Below are positions 1 to 59,766 of a stretch of 64,000 nucleotides of DNA, piece by piece. The stretch covers positions 1 through 64,000 of the forward strand of contig JAFGLZ010000026.1 in NCBI GenBank assembly GCA_016927755.1, written 5' to 3'. This stretch comes from Phycisphaerae bacterium. Its GTDB lineage: Bacteria > Planctomycetota > Phycisphaerae > UBA1845 > JAFGLZ01. Position numbers and translations under genes: made by a program. Position 1 is the stretch's first letter. Each line of letters begins with the position of its first letter. The notes under the pieces were generated by a model, which was not told the DNA's origin, did no database searches, and saw nothing but the letters and a program-made list of their open reading frames with translations.

Positions 1-3000
1 ATTCGGATCGAGCGAGACGGTCCCGCTGCCCTGGATGATTACGTTCAGGGCGTAGTCCAAACACTCGCCACCGTGTATCCATTCCTGAACGTCCATCGGC
101 TCAAAGCCAATTGGCATGCCCATGCCCTCGGAGAGCCCCACAAGACCGTAAGCTCTGTACATTCCGCGCCACGAGACTCGAATCTTACCATCGAAGAACA
201 TCTCGATTTGGAATTTGCGGTAGGCGGTATAGTATTCATCGCTTGCCTTGAAGTCTATGGGGTTCCACCACATCACGACCAGACGGTCATTCGTCTGTCG
301 CCACTGTATGTTCATAGCATTCTCGTATCGCAGATCTGCCCTGTAGGCGGATACGCGCGGCAACCGGAAGTGGTCGGCAAAATTGATCCCACTGGTCGTG
401 TCACTCGCTGCAAACGTTAGGAAGCCCCACCTGCTGATGTAGATTGGGCGCGAGCGAGAACCATAGCTCTGACCATAGAGCCACACCTTATTGACGCCCA
501 GTGAGATACGATGGTACTCCAGATTTCGCATGTCCAGGCAACACCATTCATCGGAATCCGGATCGACAGGTAGCTCTGTGATAGGCTCCGTGCAGGCTGT
601 GTAGAAAGCATTGGACCCGTCCGGTCGGAACAAGATGGAATAGTTCCCGAAGTCGTTCGGATCCTCGACAAACTGAGCGAAGTACCTCTCCCTCTTGACG
701 GAGGCGAAGTGGTAGCATTCCCCTCCGTTGTCTCCCATCGTCACGTTGTTGGCGTCATCAACTACTTCGACCTTGTAGTAGTAGGTCGTGTTCGGTTCGG
801 TGCCGAGAATCTGCACGGCATGCGATGTACCCCGGTAGGGTCCCACCGCAGTCTCTGTAAGCTCGGCGCAGGAAAGGCCCCAATGCACGATGCCGATTGC
901 GGGCTCATCGGTGTCGAAGACGATCGACATGACGTAATCCCCCTCCACGCGGACGCCAACGTTCGTAACCTCGGGGCCCTGGCAGTCAATCTCGGCGCTG
1001 TTCTGAACGTTGGCTGGATTCCCCGAACCGTCGTCGCTGTCCCGATAGGTGACCGTGACCTCATCGCCGTGTCCGACGAGAAGATCCTCCAGAGTGGCCA
1101 TCCCAGCGAAGCGCGCGGTGTTTGCGCCTGTTTCAGTTAGGACGATGCTCTGGCCCGATGGAACGTTCGGTGAGCTTATTGAGACTATCGTCGTCTCGAC
1201 GCTATTGGCGTCAGTGTTGAGATCACAGTCCATCACCGTGATCTCCGCGCTAGCTTGGCAGCCATAGTTCTCTGCATCCAAGAGCACCTCACCTTTGGAG
1301 GAACACCCTTGGTACTCCGGGGTAAATACGGCTGAGTAAGGCTGAGGACCGCAAGGGACGGAGTAGCCAGTCACCCGTATCGTCCAGATCCCTTCCTCGG
1401 GGTCCTGGACAGCAATCTGTTCGATGTTGTTGACGTGATCAGGCTGTGTCTGGACGGGGAAAAGACTAGGATCATTGGGGTCCAGTGTCCAGGGATAGTG
1501 CACGACGCCACTGGGGCTGATCGCCACAAGGTCCAGGTCGTTGACCAGCTCTGGCGTTGTGTTCAGCGCGCCAGGCACGTCATCCCACGCAACCGTCACT
1601 GCCAGAGCATTCGCATCCGCAGGACAGCTAACGTAGTAGAACCTCTCTTGCCCTTGGTCTACGTCATCTTCCAGAAAGCTCTTCGCTCGGAGCGTATCAA
1701 TAGCGGGCTGAAGCCGCGCGTAGCCATAACCGCGAAGGTAATCTGGTCCTGGATGCTCATTAGGCTTGTCTTGCTCGGCATGGTGTGTCAAGAGAGCCTT
1801 GAGAGTCGAGTTGCGGGGCAACGGTGCATTGGGATAAATACCCTTGAAATCCTCCAATATGAGTCCACATAGGCCACACACAAATGCGCAGGCCGACGAG
1901 GTCCCTCCGCCAAGCTCGCCGTAATAATACTGTTCCTGCGGTGTGAATTCGGACCTCCAGAAAGGTCCCCACAGCCCACATGGCTGTACCACATACCAGC
2001 TACAGTCATCGATAAAGGCGCCCCATAATGTTTGGCCAGGTGCGGACAGGTCAGGCTTGACTCGCCCATCGTCGGTCGGTCCCCAACTGGAAATGCCAGT
2101 ATACCAAGTCCACCAGTAGTCCTCAAAGTCCTCCTCGCAGTTATTCCCCACCATCCGGTTAGAAAAGCTAGCTCCCACCGTGATGACGTTCTTCGCAGTC
2201 GCAGGCGGTGGAACTGTACCGAGGTCACCGCACACCCAGGCCGTTCGTTCGTTGCCTGCCGCGAGTATGACTCGCATGGGGTCAAGGGGCTGACCGCCCG
2301 GCTCAAGCTGCATGCCCCCCCGCACAAGAGCATCTAGCAACATCGAGACAACGCTGTAGTCCCCCTCCCACTCGCAGCTATAGCCATTCGCAGCGATTCC
2401 CGGGCCTACGGAGTTGCTGATAACCTCGGCACCCCAGGTGATCGAGTCGACGTAGTCATGCTCGAGATCTCCCGGGTCCGTATAGAACCACTGCTCTCCA
2501 CAGGGCTGGGCAGGTTTCGCAACGTAAGATAGGATTACCGCTTCGGACGCAACACCTCGGAAGTTCTTCAGGTGAGCATTGGGTTCGAGCGGATTCGTGT
2601 TGTAGTTTGGGTCATGAGTGACCGTACCGTTACCAGCAATGATTCCAGCCATGGCGGTGGCGTGCCCATTCGGTTGATACTGGTTGGGATCATAGTCGTC
2701 AAGGTCGGCAAGAACGACGCGCCCCGCCAGGTCAGGATGCTCCGCGTGGACCGGCCCACAATCGTACAACATCACAGTCACCCCATTGCCCTCAAGTCCA
2801 TAGACGCCGAAATTCGGGTCGTTCGGGTCTGATGCAAGCGCTCTTGGCCGCGCTCGAACAGATTTCGCTTCAAGCGCCGGCAGCGCCGGCTCGATCCACT
2901 GGACAGCATCCTCTGCCGCCAGGGCGTCGAGATTAGCCTGAGGAACCCAAACCACGGCCGCGTTGATCGTTCTCATTACGCTCCGGACCACGCCGCCGTG

Positions 3001-3750
3001 ATTGTGTACGACCTCAACCGCCTCGCCATTGATCTGGACGTCCGGGTGAAACAGGACGTACACGACCAAAGCATCCACTTCCCCGTCTGGTTTCGCCTCT
3101 ACTCTCCGATCCATCACCGCGTCCGGGAGGCGATGAGCCTTCGCCGACCTCGGCCCGACTACAAGCTTTCCGTCGGCCACCGGCGCCCTGAATCTCGCGT
3201 GATCGGGAAACTCCCCTCGAAGCAGCATCGGATGCAACTTGTGCTCCCTCTTCACCTGGACGACGCCAATCACACCGGACTCCCTGATCGCCGCTGCAGC
3301 TGCTTGGCCCCGTGCTGGACCCTCTATCTTCGCGAAGTACGAGTTTCCCCCCACATACCTGAGCAACTTCACACCGGATGCATCGAGGGACGCGCGCTTC
3401 TCGGCGGTCGGGATCTCCTCCAACTGCACAACCACATGCCGGCCTGTCTTGCTCGTCAGCGCCTCTCTGAGATCAGCATTCCCCTCGGGTGGGGGAGTCT
3501 CTCTGCCCGATCGCCATCGAATGACCTTTGGACCGCGAGCACATGTGCCCGCCTCCCCGACCACGCCCTGGCCGCCAGGTACCGCCTCCGCTGCAGACGT
3601 GCCCCTGGCGGTCTCGACGTAGCGGTGCCTTTGCATGCCTTCTCTGTCACCCGAGGAGGCAGCAACCCGCGAGCTCAATACAACGGTCCCCACCCCCAGC
3701 ACGCCAGCGACGAGCCCGATCGAAAGCCGACACCCAACGCCAATCCTCAT
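1..3750 (-). CDS. Secreted S8 (subtilisin-like) serine peptidase, C-terminus beyond window
   Basis: An open frame runs without a stop from ATG at 3750 to the left edge, at least 1250 codons; a GGAGG Shine-Dalgarno lies just upstream of the start. The N-terminus reads as a signal peptide (MRIGVG then a hydrophobic stretch ending in VAAS). The S8 catalytic triad is visible: Asp around residue 330 in VMLYDCG, His around 363 in NGHATAMAG, and Ser around 618 in GGGTSSA; the oxyanion-hole Asn sits in ILAAGNE. Behind the catalytic domain are a beta-rich segment (VTVAWDD) and a fibronectin-III-like stretch (VFDTDEPAIGIVHWG). The roughly 330 residues before the first catalytic residue probably form a propeptide or inhibitor domain. 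Established: such enzymes are secreted proteases. Inferred: extracellular protein degradation; the substrate is unknown and the C-terminal sorting signal is not in the window. Confidence 0.92.
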   Translation of the reverse strand, partial: MRIGVGCRLSIGLVAGVLGVGTVVLSSRVAASSGDREGMQRHRYVETARGTSAAEAVPGGQGVVGEAGTCARGPKVIRWRSGRETPPPEGNADLREALTSKTGRHVVVQLEEIPTAEKRASLDASGVKLLRYVGGNSYFAKIEGPARGQAAAAAIRESGVIGVVQVKREHKLHPMLLRGEFPDHARFRAPVADGKLVVGPRSAKAHRLPDAVMDRRVEAKPDGEVDALVVYVLFHPDVQINGEAVEVVHNHGGVVRSVMRTINAAVVWVPQANLDALAAEDAVQWIEPALPALEAKSVRARPRALASDPNDPNFGVYGLEGNGVTVMLYDCGPVHAEHPDLAGRVVLADLDDYDPNQYQPNGHATAMAGIIAGNGTVTHDPNYNTNPLEPNAHLKNFRGVASEAVILSYVAKPAQPCGEQWFYTDPGDLEHDYVDSITWGAEVISNSVGPGIAANGYSCEWEGDYSVVSMLLDALVRGGMQLEPGGQPLDPMRVILAAGNERTAWVCGDLGTVPPPATAKNVITVGASFSNRMVGNNCEEDFEDYWWTWYTGISSWGPTDDGRVKPDLSAPGQTLWGAFIDDCSWYVVQPCGLWGPFWRSEFTPQEQYYYGELGGGTSSACAFVCGLCGLILEDFKGIYPNAPLPRNSTLKALLTHHAEQDKPNEHPGPDYLRGYGYARLQPAIDTLRAKSFLEDDVDQGQERFYYVSCPADANALAVTVAWDDVPGALNTTPELVNDLDLVAISPSGVVHYPWTLDPNDPSLFPVQTQPDHVNNIEQIAVQDPEEGIWTIRVTGYSVPCGPQPYSAVFTPEYQGCSSKGEVLLDAENYGCQASAEITVMDCDLNTDANSVETTIVSISSPNVPSGQSIVLTETGANTARFAGMATLEDLLVGHGDEVTVTYRDSDDGSGNPANVQNSAEIDCQGPEVTNVGVRVEGDYVMSIVFDTDEPAIGIVHWGLSCAELTETAVGPYRGTSHAVQILGTEPNTTYYYKVEVVDDANNVTMGDNGGECYHFASVKRERYFAQFVEDPNDFGNYSILFRPDGSNAFYTACTEPITELPVDPDSDEWCCLDMRNLEYHRISLGVNKVWLYGQSYGSRSRPIYISRWGFLTFAASDTTSGINFADHFRLPRVSAYRADLRYENAMNIQWRQTNDRLVVMWWNPIDFKASDEYYTAYRKFQIEMFFDGKIRVSWRGMYRAYGLVGLSEGMGMPIGFEPMDVQEWIHGGECLDYALNVIIQGSGTVSLDPN

Positions 3751-4589
3751 GGCCTGCCTCCTCGTCGTCCCTCACGGACGTTGACCTGCCCAGACCCTCC
3801 GCATCGCCGACTACACGGCGCGCACCCTCTCCGCCCGGGTGCGCGCGGCATCACGGCAAAGCGCAATGGCCACACAACGCCCCGTGCGCACCACCCACCC
3901 CAGACTCTCACCCAAGGGGTGAAGCCCTGAAGCGAGTTACGAGTTGTCCTCTGATTGCGGAATCCTGCCTCGCTGGGTCAGACTGTGACTAAACCCAGCA
4001 CTTGATCAAGGCATTCTCCGCCTCCTGCGTCTAGAACTGCGTAATAGCGAACGTGCTTTGGCGGAACTTCATCTGCCGATATTATGGGACATCATTACGC
4101 CGATGACAAGTCCGCCCCGAGAATTCTGACGAGAAAAAAACATGAGCCGCAATGGATTAGATCCTGCGGCATTCTTGCGTGCGGGGCTTAGGCCTCTGAG
4201 AAATAGTGCCTTATCATCAATACCTGACAGGCGCGATATGGAATAGTCGTTTGCGGTGTCTATCTCGCGGTGACAAACTGCCCCTGAAACATGGCACCCA
4301 TTCGGTTGAACCGGCAAAGACGGGAGGAACGCCGGTAACGGGCCGCAGTTGCAGCTACGGTCGCGTCCGGGCCAGAAGACCGAGTATGGAGGGCACAGGA
4401 GCAACAGTCCTTCCGCGCGGATGGCTGCTTCTCCCCTAATCGCTAAGGATGAACCGTAGCTACATGACCTTTGCCCTTTCGGCCAGTGGGTTGCCGCGTC
4501 CCCGGAAGGACGGATCCCTCGCTGCAGATGTTGTCACTACAGCGCCGACAGCACGGGCGACGGCTCACGCACGGGTGCAGCCGCAACAT
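3751..4589. other. Intergenic stretch without a convincing gene
   Basis: Between the peptidase start and the decayed element fragment I see only short open frames with unlikely residue composition. The peptidase Shine-Dalgarno sits at the left edge of the stretch. A structured-looking segment around 4290-4390 has an ACCGGC/GCCGGT inverted repeat, but I could not match it to a known riboswitch. The absence of genes next to a tRNA and element remnants suggests eroded, once-mobile DNA. Confidence 0.5.
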
Positions 4590-54202: not shown

Positions 54203-55867
54203 ATGAACGCTTGGAGCCTGCTCTCGGACATTGTGATTTTGCTCGGAGCATCGTTGTTGCTGGGCGGGATTCTCTCGCGGCTTCGACAGAGTCCCTTGGT
54301 CGGCTACATTGTCGCCGGCATGGTGCTCGGGGGCCCCGGTAGTGTTCGCATGGTTCATTCCCAGCAGCAGATCGAAGCCATAGCCGAACTCGGCGTTTCC
54401 CTGCTGCTCTTCAGCCTCGGTCTCGAGTTTGCATGGCCCCAGCTCAAGAAGCTGGGAACCCGAACGCTTTCGGCCGGGATTGTCCAGGTGTTGGTGACCA
54501 CCGTTCTGGGAGCGTTGGCCGGCTTGGCCGCCGGTCTTGCGGTAAGAGAAGCCGTCGCCGTCGGGGCGATGGTGTCTCTAAGCAGTACGGCTGTGGTCCT
54601 GCGAGTACTTATGGAGAGGGCGGAGGGCGACAGCGCTTACGGCCGCAACAGCCTTGCTGTTCTCCTGGTGCAAGATATGGCTGTCGTTCCTCTGGCCATT
54701 CTTGTGGCTCTCCTGGGTGGTGGTGCCGGCCCGGCTGAAATGGCGATCGGCGCGGGAAGAATCGTGCTTCTGGCGATCGGGCTGGTGGCGGGGCTCTACC
54801 TCATCATGAACAAGATTGCCGTCCGCGCACTGGGTGCGCTTACGCTCGAACCCAACCGGGAACTGACAATTATCCTCGCCGTGGTCGCCGGCCTCGGATC
54901 TGCGTGGGCCGCCCACTCGGCGGGAGTGTCCCCGGCACTGGGGGCGTTCGTGGCCGGGATGTTCCTCGGAGGCTCACCCTTTGCCACTCAGATACGGGCC
55001 GACATATCACCTCTTCGCATCGTCTTCCTCACCTTGTTTTTCGGCTCGACCGGCATGGTGGCTGACCCCCTATGGATTCTCGGGCATCTGCCTCTCGTTG
55101 TGGGCACGAGCCTCGTCCTGATGGTGGGCAAGGCGGCCGTGGTCTGGGGCGTCTTTCAGGCGCTCGGGCACTCCGCTCAGGTGGCCGCCGCAACCGGCGT
55201 CTCCCTGGCGCAGGTCGGCGAATTCGCCTTTGTCCTCGGAGGGATCGGACGAGCTAACGGCGTTCTCGGTGAGGAGACATACCTTCTCATTATCTCGGTC
55301 ACTGTCGTGACCCTGGTTCTCAGTCCGCCTCTCCTCTCCGCGGCCCCTGGGCTCGGCATGCGGCTCGCACGTTTGCTGCCCGGCTCACGGTCGTATTCGC
55401 TTCCGAGACGGTATCGTCATGCCGGCGCCCCTGACGTGGTGATCATTGGGTTTGGCCCGGCAGGCCAGATCGCGGCGCGGGCATTCCTCGGGCGCCCCGA
55501 GCGTGTGTCGGTCATCGACCTGAATCGTGACGGCGTGCAAAAGGCGCAGCAGCTTGGTTTCGACGGTTACGTCGGAGACGCCACGCAGATTGACGTGCTG
55601 AAGCATGCTGATCTGGGTTCCGCCAAAGCGGTTGTCATCACCGTGCCACACCACCACCCTGCCATGTGTATTCTGGAGCACGTTCGGCGCCTCGCGGTAC
55701 ACGCCCACGTTGTCGTTCGCTCGCGATACCAGCGGCATGCAAACGATTTCGCGGTCGCGGGAGCCCATGCCGTCATCGGAGACGAGGAGCAGATCGGTGA
55801 TAGTCTTGGACGACACTTACGGGAGTGGCTTGCGGCGCATGACCAGTCGCAGACAGGCCCCCAATAG
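54203..55867 (+). CDS. CPA2 cation:proton antiporter with RCK domain (KefB/RosB type)
   Basis: 554 residues. Residues 1-395 form a Na+/H+-exchanger-like membrane domain with about 12 TM helices (VGYIVAGMVLGGPGS, LLLFSLGLEF, SLSSTAVVLRVLMERAE, GVSPALGAFVAGMFLGGSPF). Residues 405-535 are a TrkA-N domain (VVIIGFGPAGQIAARAFLG, VSVIDLNRDGVQKAQQLGF, GDATQIDVLKHADL). A short C-terminal extension follows. It exports K+ or exchanges cations under nucleotide control. The glutathione-binding features of true KefB/C cannot be judged. The gene stands apart from the K+ block at 28 kb. Confidence 0.93.
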   Translation: MNAWSLLSDIVILLGASLLLGGILSRLRQSPLVGYIVAGMVLGGPGSVRMVHSQQQIEAIAELGVSLLLFSLGLEFAWPQLKKLGTRTLSAGIVQVLVTTVLGALAGLAAGLAVREAVAVGAMVSLSSTAVVLRVLMERAEGDSAYGRNSLAVLLVQDMAVVPLAILVALLGGGAGPAEMAIGAGRIVLLAIGLVAGLYLIMNKIAVRALGALTLEPNRELTIILAVVAGLGSAWAAHSAGVSPALGAFVAGMFLGGSPFATQIRADISPLRIVFLTLFFGSTGMVADPLWILGHLPLVVGTSLVLMVGKAAVVWGVFQALGHSAQVAAATGVSLAQVGEFAFVLGGIGRANGVLGEETYLLIISVTVVTLVLSPPLLSAAPGLGMRLARLLPGSRSYSLPRRYRHAGAPDVVIIGFGPAGQIAARAFLGRPERVSVIDLNRDGVQKAQQLGFDGYVGDATQIDVLKHADLGSAKAVVITVPHHHPAMCILEHVRRLAVHAHVVVRSRYQRHANDFAVAGAHAVIGDEEQIGDSLGRHLREWLAAHDQSQTGPQ

Positions 55868-56626: not shown

Positions 56627-57850
56627 TTACTCATCTTGCAGTCCATTTAGCGCCTCGCGAAGGTCGGCGGCCGGCCCTTCGGCGGCGCCCTCGTTAAGCC
56701 GTGACGGGAGGAGGTGTCGCGGCAGGAACGCGAAGCCGGCGATCAGGGTCGGCACCACGGCGCTGGCGATGACGACGCCGACGAGGAACGAGTATTGCTC
56801 GCGCGTCACGATGTCGTGCGTCAGCCCGTACAACGCCGAGATCGTCCCGAACGTCAGCCCGGTGGACATCATCAGCGTGTAGTACCACCGCTCGTTGCGC
56901 TCCTGGCGGAACCCTGCAATCACGGGATACAGGCCGAAGATCTTCGAGGCCACCTTGCCTCCCAAGAGCAACAGGAACACCAACGGAGCCGAGACGAGTG
57001 CGGGTACCGAAACGAGGGCCCCGGCCCGAATGAAGTAGAACGGGGTGAGGAAGCCGACCGTCAGCGTTCGAAGCCGCCGCACCCACAGATGATCCGCCTC
57101 GGCCGCCTCGGCGAGAATCATCCCGGCCAGGTAGGCGGGCAGAACGGCCTCGCTTCCCGACCACAGCGCCAGGGCGCCCAGCCCGAAGAGGACGAGCAGC
57201 ACCCACTTGGTGCGGATCGCCGCGGTCCGATACGCGTAGCGCCGAGTCAGCCACCTCGTCACGAACGACAACGATGCCAGAACGAGCACGCTGACGACCA
57301 GGAAGACGCCCGTCTTGCAGGTGAACGGGGCGAAGATCAGTCCCAGCGCCAATACCGTGCCCAGGTCATTCACAAAGCACGCGCCGAGGATCCCCTTGCC
57401 GAACTCGGTGCGATTGAAGCCCGTCTCCAGCATGACTGCGTAGACGACGGCCATCGACGTCGTCGACAGGGCCACGCCGGCCAGCCAGCTCGCTCGGCCG
57501 TCCCAGCCCAATACGTAGTGGGCAATCGCGGCGCAGCCGAGAAAGGGCGCCAAGAACACAATCGCGCCGACCACCCCGACTTCCTTCCATTTGGCGCGGA
57601 GCGTGGCCGGCTCCAATTCGGCCCCAGCCAGAAACGTGAGCACGACGGCGCCTGAGGTGGCCAGGAATCGCAGCCAGTCAATCTGCGCCCCCAGCGAGTC
57701 CGGCCCGCTGAAACGCTCCGCGACGAGGCCGGCGACGATGCCGACGCAGATTTCCAGGAGGGCCGTCGAGACGCCCAGGTGGTTGGCCAGGATCGTGGCG
57801 AGAACCGCCAGAAAAAGCCACAACGCAGCGATGGAGAACGCTTGGGTCAT
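56627..57850 (-). CDS. Cation:proton antiporter under fluoride-riboswitch control
   Basis: 407 residues from the ATG at 57850 (GGAG upstream). About 12 TM helices of the Na+/H+ exchanger (CPA2/KefB membrane part) type: LEICVGIVAGLVAERFSG, VLTFLAGAELEPATLRAKWK, LSTTSMAVVYAVMLETGFNR, FVNDLGTVLALGL, LPAYLAGMILAEAAEADHLW, LTPFYFIRAGALVSVPALVS and MSTGLTFGTISALYGL. No RCK domain. Frames that begin further upstream run into the leader RNA and are rejected. The leader carries a fluoride aptamer and terminator (57865-57992), so expression should rise with fluoride. Na+/H+ antiporters are known members of fluoride-riboswitch regulons; the transported ion is inferred. Confidence 0.92.
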   Translation of the reverse strand: MTQAFSIAALWLFLAVLATILANHLGVSTALLEICVGIVAGLVAERFSGPDSLGAQIDWLRFLATSGAVVLTFLAGAELEPATLRAKWKEVGVVGAIVFLAPFLGCAAIAHYVLGWDGRASWLAGVALSTTSMAVVYAVMLETGFNRTEFGKGILGACFVNDLGTVLALGLIFAPFTCKTGVFLVVSVLVLASLSFVTRWLTRRYAYRTAAIRTKWVLLVLFGLGALALWSGSEAVLPAYLAGMILAEAAEADHLWVRRLRTLTVGFLTPFYFIRAGALVSVPALVSAPLVFLLLLGGKVASKIFGLYPVIAGFRQERNERWYYTLMMSTGLTFGTISALYGLTHDIVTREQYSFLVGVVIASAVVPTLIAGFAFLPRHLLPSRLNEGAAEGPAADLREALNGLQDE

Positions 57851-57864
57851 CGGAAGGCTCCGCG

Positions 57865-57911
57865 GCATCCGGCAACAAAAAGGCCCTGCCTGGTAGCAGG
57901 GCGCCGGATGC
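57865..57911 (-). terminator. Intrinsic terminator nested in an outer stem (riboswitch expression platform)
   Basis: On the minus strand the 7-bp stem GCCCTGC/GCAGGGC (57902-57896 with 57889-57883) with loop TACCAG is followed by CTTTTTGTT, an intrinsic terminator. It is enclosed by a perfect 9-bp outer stem, GCATCCGGC (57911-57903) with GCCGGATGC (57873-57865), which ends 14 bases before the start codon and close to the Shine-Dalgarno. Located just downstream of the fluoride aptamer, it is the likely switch that stops transcription when fluoride is absent. Confidence 0.85.
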
Positions 57912-57941
57912 ACACACGTGACCCCTGCCAGCAAGCACACA

Positions 57942-57992
57942 GGCAGGAGTCATCAGACCCAAGCGGGTCGGTTAAGGGCGGACTCCATCGCC
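57942..57992 (-). ncRNA. Fluoride riboswitch aptamer (crcB motif)
   Basis: Read on the minus strand from 57992, the sequence is GGCGATGGAGTCCGCCC, TTAACCGACCC, GCTT, GGGTCTGATGACTCCTGCC. This matches the crcB motif point by point: P1-type GGCG/CGCC closing the GATGGAGTC loop, the AACC turn, the GACCC/GGGTC hairpin, and the conserved CTGATGACTCCT. The loop GGAGTC pairs with GACTCC as the pseudoknot that holds the Mg2+-fluoride site. Spacing and length (51 bases) agree with the structure of the Thermotoga aptamer as I recall it. It precedes an intrinsic terminator and a cation antiporter gene, a recognised target class. Confidence 0.95.
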
Positions 57993-58143
57993 GCGACAGC
58001 AGGATAGCACGTTGGCCCAAGAACGGCAAGGCGGCATTCCGTGTTGGTTGTCGCCCTCGGCGTCCGAGGAGTTGTCCGACTGGATTCTCCACCGAAGGCT
58101 GTGCCCCTCGCCTTGCGGAGGACAAGGAGGGGGAGCCTTGCTG

Positions 58144-58192: not shown

Positions 58193-58537
58193 ATGACCCT
58201 GAAATCGTCAGAGCATCTCGCCCGGATGACCAAGGTGCTTTCCGTGGGCGCGCGGGTAGAGATCATCCGGCTTCTGAAGGACCGGAGCTTGTGCGTCAAC
58301 GCGCTGGCCGCGCGGCTGAAGGTGACGGCGGGCGCCGTGTCCCAACACTTGCGCGTCATGCGGGATGCGGGGCTGGTGATCGATGAGAAGCGCGGCTACT
58401 ACGTGCACTACCGCCTGAACGAAAAGACGCTCGCCAGGTGGCGAAAACAGATCGATGAACTCCTCACCACGGGATCGAGCCAAGCGTGCCAATGCGCCAA
58501 ACAGCCAGACTCACAATGTCAGACTCGTAAGTCCTGA
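58193..58537 (+). CDS. ArsR/SmtB-family transcriptional regulator
   Basis: 114 residues from the ATG at 58193; longer frames cross the promoter and are rejected. Winged helix: LARMTKVLSVGARVEIIRLL, CVNALAARLKVTAGAVSQHL, RVMRDAGLVIDEKRGYYVHY. The usual ELCVC metal motif is changed to SLCVN. Cysteines instead cluster at the C-terminus (QACQCAKQPDSQCQT), a possible alternative metal or thiol sensor site. It heads a run of a Cys-rich small protein, a DsrE protein, a methyltransferase and an ABC exporter. Confidence 0.92.
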   Translation: MTLKSSEHLARMTKVLSVGARVEIIRLLKDRSLCVNALAARLKVTAGAVSQHLRVMRDAGLVIDEKRGYYVHYRLNEKTLARWRKQIDELLTTGSSQACQCAKQPDSQCQTRKS

Positions 58538-58568
58538 CGAGGAGACCATCACGAAGGAGAACCAGACG

Positions 58569-58727
58569 ATGTCCGACCGCGACAAGAAGAAGGGTTGCCA
58601 GAAGCCGGAGAAGCTCAAGGGCAAGCCGGGGGAATGCTCACCCGAGCAGGTTCGCAAGTGCCACGGTGACGTGAAGAGGCACCCCTGTCCGCCGAAGAAG
58701 GATGCCCGGAAAGGAGGCGGCAGATGA
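58569..58727 (+). CDS. Small lysine- and cysteine-rich protein
   Basis: 52 residues from the ATG at 58569 with GAAGGAGA upstream. Motifs: DKKKGCQKPEKLKGKPGECS, PEQVRKCHGDVKRHPCPPKK. Four cysteines and two histidines look suited to bind a metal. It overlaps the DsrE gene by 4 bases (ATGA). I recognise the GKPxECSPEQxRxCHGDxKxHPC pattern as a recurrent small protein next to DsrE genes, but its function is unknown. Confidence 0.8.
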   Translation: MSDRDKKKGCQKPEKLKGKPGECSPEQVRKCHGDVKRHPCPPKKDARKGGGR

Positions 58728-59044
58728 AGCTCGGCGTGATCATTACCCAGACTGATCCGGAGACCGTGTTCAACGCGCTGCGACTTGCCCTCTACAGCCT
58801 GGAACAGGGCGACAGTGTGCGCGTCTTTCTTTCCGGGAAAGGTGTCGACATCGACAAGATCGAAGACCCCAAGTTCGACGTGAAAGGCCACGCGCAGAAG
58901 GTCTTGGACGCCGGAGGGCAATTCCTCGCCTGCGGGGCCTGCCTGAAGCTGCGCAATTCCGAGGGCTCGGAGATCTGCCCGCTTTCGACAATGAAGGACC
59001 AGTACGAGATTGTTCGAGATTCTGACAAGGTGATCACGATGTAA
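58724..59044 (+). CDS. Cytoplasmic DsrE/DsrF-like protein
   Basis: 106 residues: MKLGVIITQTDPETVFNALR, VRVFLSGKGVDIDKIEDPKF and the active-site region GQFLACGACLKLRNSEGSEI. A CGAC cysteine pair suggests sulfur-transfer or metal-binding activity. It is translationally coupled on both sides (4-base overlap with the Cys-rich protein, 1-base overlap with the methyltransferase). Confidence 0.9.
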   Translation: MKLGVIITQTDPETVFNALRLALYSLEQGDSVRVFLSGKGVDIDKIEDPKFDVKGHAQKVLDAGGQFLACGACLKLRNSEGSEICPLSTMKDQYEIVRDSDKVITM

Positions 59045-59766
59045 TGGACGAGTCCGGCTCGCCACAACATCCGCGTGCACCTTTCGACGCTCTGGCCGAC
59101 CGCTATGACGAGTGGTACGAGAGCGCCGAAGGTTTAGCCGTGTTGCGCGAAGAGTCGGCGTGTCTGAAGGCGCTAAGCCCGAAGTGCCACGGGCGATGGC
59201 TGGAAGTGGGTGTTGGAACCGGTCGATTCGCTTTGGAGATGGGCATCGCCGAAGGGATAGATCCCTCACTGAAGATGCTGGAACATGCGGCGCGACGTGG
59301 CGTTCGCACCCATACGGGAGCGGCGGAGCATCTGCCCTTTCCTGACGGATCGTTCGACGGCGTACTCATGGCGCTGGCGCTCTGCTTTGTGCGGGACTCA
59401 CGGCAGGCCCTGCGCGAGTCCGCCAGGGTGCTGCGCCCATCGGGAACGCTTCTCGTGGGAATCGTTCCGGCGGACAGCTCTTGGGGTAGGTTGTACGCGC
59501 AAAAGGCTGCCGAAGGCCATCCAGCCTACTCTCTTACCTCTTTGCGCACCATTTCCGAAACCGTGGCGTTGGCGGAAGGAGCAGGCTTTGTTCTGCGGGC
59601 CTCGGCCAGCGCCCTGCTTTGGAATCCCGGTGATATGCCTGTGAGCGAGGCGCGCATCGAACGGCGCACTGACGAAGGGGCGGGTTTTGCCGCCTTGCGT
59701 TTTGAGCATTTGGTAAACGTGAACGATTCCGCACCGGTCTCGGTGGAGGGCCGAGATGGCGAGTAA
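59044..59766 (+). CDS. SAM-dependent methyltransferase of the ArsR cluster
   Basis: 240 residues. Motifs: FDALADRYDEWYESAEGLAV, motif I WLEVGVGTGRFALEMGIAEG, IDPSLKMLEHAARRG, LPFPDGSFDGVLMALALCFV and VLRPSGTLLVGIVPADSS. A methyltransferase_11 fold of the UbiE/ArsM-like type, but without the ArsM cysteine set. It is a frequent companion of ArsR-DsrE clusters; the substrate is unknown. It overlaps the ABC ATPase gene by 11 bases. Confidence 0.9.
   Translation: MDESGSPQHPRAPFDALADRYDEWYESAEGLAVLREESACLKALSPKCHGRWLEVGVGTGRFALEMGIAEGIDPSLKMLEHAARRGVRTHTGAAEHLPFPDGSFDGVLMALALCFVRDSRQALRESARVLRPSGTLLVGIVPADSSWGRLYAQKAAEGHPAYSLTSLRTISETVALAEGAGFVLRASASALLWNPGDMPVSEARIERRTDEGAGFAALRFEHLVNVNDSAPVSVEGRDGE

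Follow-up and report, generated by a model that had tools for sequence, protein, structure and literature searches.

A fluoride riboswitch upstream of a CPA2 transporter whose clade probably stands in for known fluoride exporters

Introduction

Why would a fluoride riboswitch precede a gene for what looks like a cation:proton antiporter? The question is raised by a locus in a 64,000-nucleotide stretch of DNA from a Phycisphaerae bacterium with a genome of 9.25 Mb (assembly GCA_016927755.1, contig JAFGLZ010000026.1, positions 1–64,000; contig C21 in our numbering), and we refer to this whole stretch as the window. An original prediction took the locus to link fluoride with cation/proton exchange. 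The link between riboswitch and antiporter is real but not new, because a 2024 review describes Na+/H+ antiporters as the next-most common class of fluoride-riboswitch-associated genes after exporters, and reads them as serving pH homeostasis (PMC11139923). The paper that first described the crcB motif lists associated genes that include K+ or Cl- transport, mutS and formate hydrogen lyase (PMC2864571).

The window locus thus adds one more example of a known pairing, and it is the results at the level of the transporter's clade that go beyond it. We consider it likely that the riboswitch controls a transporter from a fluoride-dedicated clade of the CPA2 family, which stands in for the exporters Fluc (CrcB) and CLC-F in most of the genomes that carry it. 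The clade raises a wider question, i.e., what serves fluoride-exposed microbes that have neither Fluc nor CLC-F. In the open-access papers searched we found no report of a CPA-type fluoride exporter, and earlier recognition of the clade is possible.

The riboswitch and its leader

A cmscan search of the window against Rfam, which the original prediction had proposed as its check, bears out a fluoride riboswitch before the antiporter gene: RF01734 matches over its full length, well above the gathering score of 34. It is the sole RF01734 match in the genome, and a chance match is ruled out by its E-value (9e-12). The locus was predicted correctly, but the model runs to 58001, past the predicted end at 57992, and all features lie on the minus strand:

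57937..58001, minus strand: fluoride riboswitch aptamer RF01734 (cmscan 52.7 bits, E = 9.3e-12, model positions 1–64 of 64)
57981..57986, minus strand: 5' pseudoknot strand GGAGTC, located in the leader sequence
57946..57951, minus strand: 3' pseudoknot strand GACTCC, located in the leader sequence
57942..57952, minus strand: 5' arm of the anti-aptamer hairpin, TGACTCCTGCC, which includes the 3' pseudoknot strand (pair probabilities 0.83–1.0, unconstrained leader)
57919..57929, minus strand: 3' arm of the anti-aptamer hairpin, GGCAGGGGTCA, which doubles as the antiterminator strand against the terminator 5' arm (leader folding)
57877..57902, minus strand: intrinsic terminator, GCCCTGC/GCAGGGC stem and U5 tract (leader folding, stem probability 0.93)
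56630..57850, minus strand: CPA2-clade transporter of 407 aa, the regulated gene (PF00999 108.4 bits; CPA2 similarity; AlphaFold2)

The complementary pseudoknot partners (57986–57981 and 57951–57946) are present as predicted, and so is an intrinsic terminator between aptamer and gene: a GCCCTGC-N6-GCAGGGC hairpin (57902–57896 and 57889–57883) followed by T5 at 57881–57877. The gene itself starts with an ATG at 57850, has GGAG 7 bases 5' of it, and stops near 56630.

Folding the leader in silico reveals three helices that are mutually exclusive in turn, involving the pseudoknot strand, an anti-aptamer hairpin and the terminator side. The 11-bp anti-aptamer hairpin takes in the 3' pseudoknot strand GACTCC and forms with high probability (0.83–1.0). 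Withholding the pseudoknot strands from folding, our stand-in for the effect of fluoride binding, lowers the terminator stem probability from 0.93 to 0.44 and raises that of an antiterminator (hairpin 3' arm with terminator 5' arm) from 0 to 0.48; before the terminator 3' arm is made, the antiterminator reaches a mean probability of 0.76. The terminator is thus exclusive with the ligand-stabilised fold in silico, as in a transcription-terminating riboswitch, and the leader is predicted to be a fluoride-ON switch of standard design. When fluoride is lacking, the 3' pseudoknot strand would be tied up in the anti-aptamer hairpin, leaving the terminator to form. When fluoride is present, the pseudoknot would keep that strand and the GGCAGGG arm would be freed; paired with the terminator 5' arm, it would allow the transporter gene to be read.

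The window leader resembles RF01734 riboswitches with an intrinsic-terminator platform in its full-model aptamer match, its downstream terminator and its predicted ON logic, in which the pseudoknot competes with terminator-side pairing. It differs in adding a separate anti-aptamer hairpin between aptamer and terminator, which we take to lie within expression-platform variation.

The transporter

PF00999 is the only Pfam family in the window protein, which neither matches PF02537 (Fluc/CrcB) nor belongs to the family of CLC-F exporters (CLC fold, GREGT/GNNLI motifs). Family model and fold both place it in CPA2, and it also matches the CPA2 model TIGR00932 of NCBIfam (E = 5.5e-31), under that model's curated cut-off. 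Its AlphaFold2 model (pLDDT 83.7, pTM 0.84) has NapA and KefC as its top Foldseek matches. NapA of Thermus thermophilus, itself CPA2, is the best of these and the nearest solved relative both by sequence and by fold: the two share 22–23% identity in structural alignment and a fold with two discontinuous helices.

The K+/H+ exchanger KefC, which also shares the fold, is a defence transporter gated by toxic stress, and in this the window transporter can be likened to it; in both, the residue preceding the catalytic Asp is non-acidic. The window protein differs in being RNA-controlled, with an extra lysine but neither a TrkA_N domain nor glutathione control. The window also holds a second CPA2 antiporter, on the plus strand at 54203–55867, which does have a TrkA_N domain (Kef-like), lacks a riboswitch and precedes a DUF3124 protein.

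The clade and its riboswitch linkage

Scanning 84,980 species genomes yields 80 relatives of the window transporter (best-segment identity 64–81%) from many phyla and one archaeon. RF01734 lies 18–242 bp upstream in the sense orientation in 57 of them, and a sensitive search adds proximal sub-threshold matches in two more (59/80). It lies further upstream in another five, including two distal cases found by the sensitive search (L043 and L062), and in 16/80 the sensitive search found none.

We also sampled 392 genomes of the window's phylum, counting as clade members homologs with at least 37% identity. There are 15 genomes with a clade member, and 14 of these have the riboswitch; by coordinates it adjoins or is in line with the clade gene, except in one genome (G314), where the contig ends. 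Homologs below about 32% identity have no riboswitch beside them in this sample. For comparison, the riboswitch is present in 9% of the genomes with CrcB and 15% of those with CLC-F. A long branch with an SH-aLRT of 99 sets the clade apart in a quick tree, where riboswitch-linked members are basal and absences scattered; the outgroup branches are long, so the outgroup position is unsure. The clade is sharply bounded, and its linkage to the riboswitch is clade-wide.

Two distant clade members (L127 and L124) sit in long open frames (666 and 602 aa) whose N-terminal extensions span about 210–280 residues.

Known exporters in clade genomes

The original prediction stressed that the window has no CrcB or CLC-F. 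That holds for the window, since the genome's single CrcB match is on contig C269 and its single CLC match on C106, but CrcB does exist elsewhere in the genome. Contig C269 as contamination (7.5% for this genome) is not supported, as its GC content and tetranucleotide signature resemble those of the window, so absence from the window says little.

CrcB occurs in 237 of the 392 phylum genomes, but in only 2/15 with a clade member (the window's own and G214) against 235/377 of the others (Fisher p = 2e-4), and CLC-F in none of the 15. These 15 genomes represent 15 different families, in six of which clade-bearing genomes without CrcB stand alongside relatives with CrcB. The known exporters are displaced in clade genomes. 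CLC-F itself (at least 47% identity) is found in 20 phylum genomes, which have neither CrcB (0/20) nor a clade member (0/20), so the clade shares its avoidance of CrcB with a proven exporter.

Among riboswitch genomes outside one family (f50), CrcB or CLC-F is present in 22/26 that lack a clade member against 2/14 that have one. About 20 riboswitch genomes, mainly from f50, have none of the three (CrcB, CLC-F, clade member), so missing exporters alone do not prove a substitute.

Of the 80 cross-phylum genomes, 6 have CrcB, a count which stands without a matched background. CLC proteins were found in 21/50 of the cross-phylum clade genomes. None that can be assessed has the GREGT/GNNLI motifs of the riboswitch-linked CLC-F at locus L020; four are fragments that cannot be assessed. 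Two of the CLC proteins (L169 and L188) belong, together with L167 and L168, to a CLC subgroup which is nearer to CLC-F than other CLCs are, a sister group with GKEGP in place of GREGT.

The ion site and what the transporter may do

An alignment of 93–94 clade sequences, with identity down to 38%, defines an altered ion site. K299 and K303 are invariant (94/94), as is D162, while position 161 is N in 79 and T in 14 of 93 sequences and D in none. Aligned with NapA, whose D156–D157 correspond to N161–D162, the clade keeps the catalytic aspartate (D157 = D162) but replaces D156 by N/T, and thus lacks the Asp-Asp pair of canonical electrogenic Na+/H+ antiporters of the NapA type. K303 corresponds to NapA K305, the lysine of NapA-like homologs. 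Beyond NapA, the clade adds the invariant K299, which is clade-specific among the sequences examined, and a nearly invariant crossover motif, TLxMSTGLTxGT (325–336). In the AlphaFold2 model this motif sits where the second discontinuous helix (318–327, 333–344) is broken, and an invariant STTS (129–132) likewise lies at such a break. None of the distant homologs examined shows the loss of the D156-type acid, the added lysine or the crossover motif. The prediction of a cation:proton antiporter stands as regards family (PF00999, 108.4 bits), but exchange of cations and protons was assumed from the fold only, and the clade's ion site differs from that of canonical antiporters.

Judged by its residues, one potential negative charge is gone from the clade site and a positive charge has been added, a change that would suit an anion. 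With the NapA/KefC fold, the clade protein would in most genomes replace Fluc (CrcB) and CLC-F as the transporter that relieves fluoride. That the clade is a fluoride-dedicated transporter family is well supported, and it is a credible candidate for a third fluoride exporter. The likeliest activity, in our tentative view, is predicted to be fluoride export itself, by F-/H+ exchange or F-/cation symport. We are more hesitant still in suggesting that the clade adds a third family, hitherto unrecognised, to the prokaryotic fluoride exporters Fluc and CLC-F, one built on a Na+/H+ antiporter fold with an acidic residue removed and a lysine added at the ion site.

CLC-F provides a precedent. It came to notice as one branch, under riboswitch control, of a larger family and was shown to carry fluoride, and the same reasoning can now be applied to the CPA2 clade. 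The two are unrelated in fold and sequence, but both are fluoride-riboswitch-linked branches of larger transporter families, have altered site residues and replace CrcB in their genomes. Fluoride transport is proven for CLC-F, not for the CPA2 clade. At one clade locus (L084) the riboswitch is followed by enolase and then directly by the clade transporter; fluoride classically targets enolase, and the arrangement thus supports a role connected with fluoride.

Ranked next after export, and a real possibility, is that the protein protects by acidification: a K+(Na+)/H+ exchanger which binds no fluoride would admit protons as fluoride rises, much as KefC does when it defends against electrophiles. 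The pH gradient would then collapse, HF would leave and fluoride accumulation would stop. This fits a fold nearest to NapA and KefC and a site which keeps the catalytic D162 and the canonical lysine K303, and it agrees with reports that fluoride accumulates by weak-acid trapping and that acid-adapted cells resist it (PMC11139923). It would also account for the displaced exporters and for two loci (L005 and L006) where riboswitch-linked PF00999 proteins outside the clade, encoded 46 and 27 bases downstream of the aptamer, keep the DD motif in genomes without CrcB and CLC-F. A canonical-looking antiporter can therefore also be the riboswitch-linked gene, and for those two loci the DD motif favours acidification. 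However, acidification needs neither the loss of the D156-type acid, nor an added invariant lysine, nor the clade's crossover motif, and the distant homologs examined do without all three. Either outcome matters: export would mean a new anion specificity on a Na+/H+ antiporter fold, and acidification would mean that control of the pH gradient alone can replace fluoride export.

A lesser, accessory role is unlikely. Under the published view of riboswitch-linked Na+/H+ antiporters (PMC11139923), the transporter would be an ordinary antiporter, aiding pH and sodium homeostasis in cells that have their true fluoride exporter elsewhere, and the window's genome does have CrcB. This predicts exporters alongside the clade, whereas the clade genomes are poor in CrcB (2/15 against 235/377) and have no CLC-F. 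It is more improbable still that the riboswitch link is real but the displacement a sampling artefact (incomplete MAGs, lineage effects) in which exporters were missed: many surveyed genomes are incomplete MAGs, several clade genomes are 67–90% complete and the 80 cross-phylum genomes are given without completeness, but with the same search 60% of phylum genomes of comparable incompleteness yielded a CrcB, each of the 15 clade genomes comes from a different family, and the contrast is internal to six families.

Other genes near fluoride riboswitches

At five clade loci, fluoride riboswitches also precede dynamin-like GTPases (PF00350), assigned by Pfam for L034 and by similar sequence for L048, L059, L072 and L091. 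The same holds for loci of family f50 (L021, L022, L028, L031, L032 and others), in whose genomes neither CrcB nor CLC-F was found as far as searched. At L034 a fluoride riboswitch also precedes a MutS domain V protein. At L065 (Pelotomaculum sp. PtaU1.Bin035) fluoride riboswitches precede UspA and glutamine synthetase, the latter with the riboswitch at 2281–2341 (54.3 bits) and the gene at 2583–3797. In the window, divergent to the riboswitch, genes for an ArsR/SmtB regulator, a small lysine-rich protein, a DsrE-family protein and a methyltransferase form one run (58193–59766).
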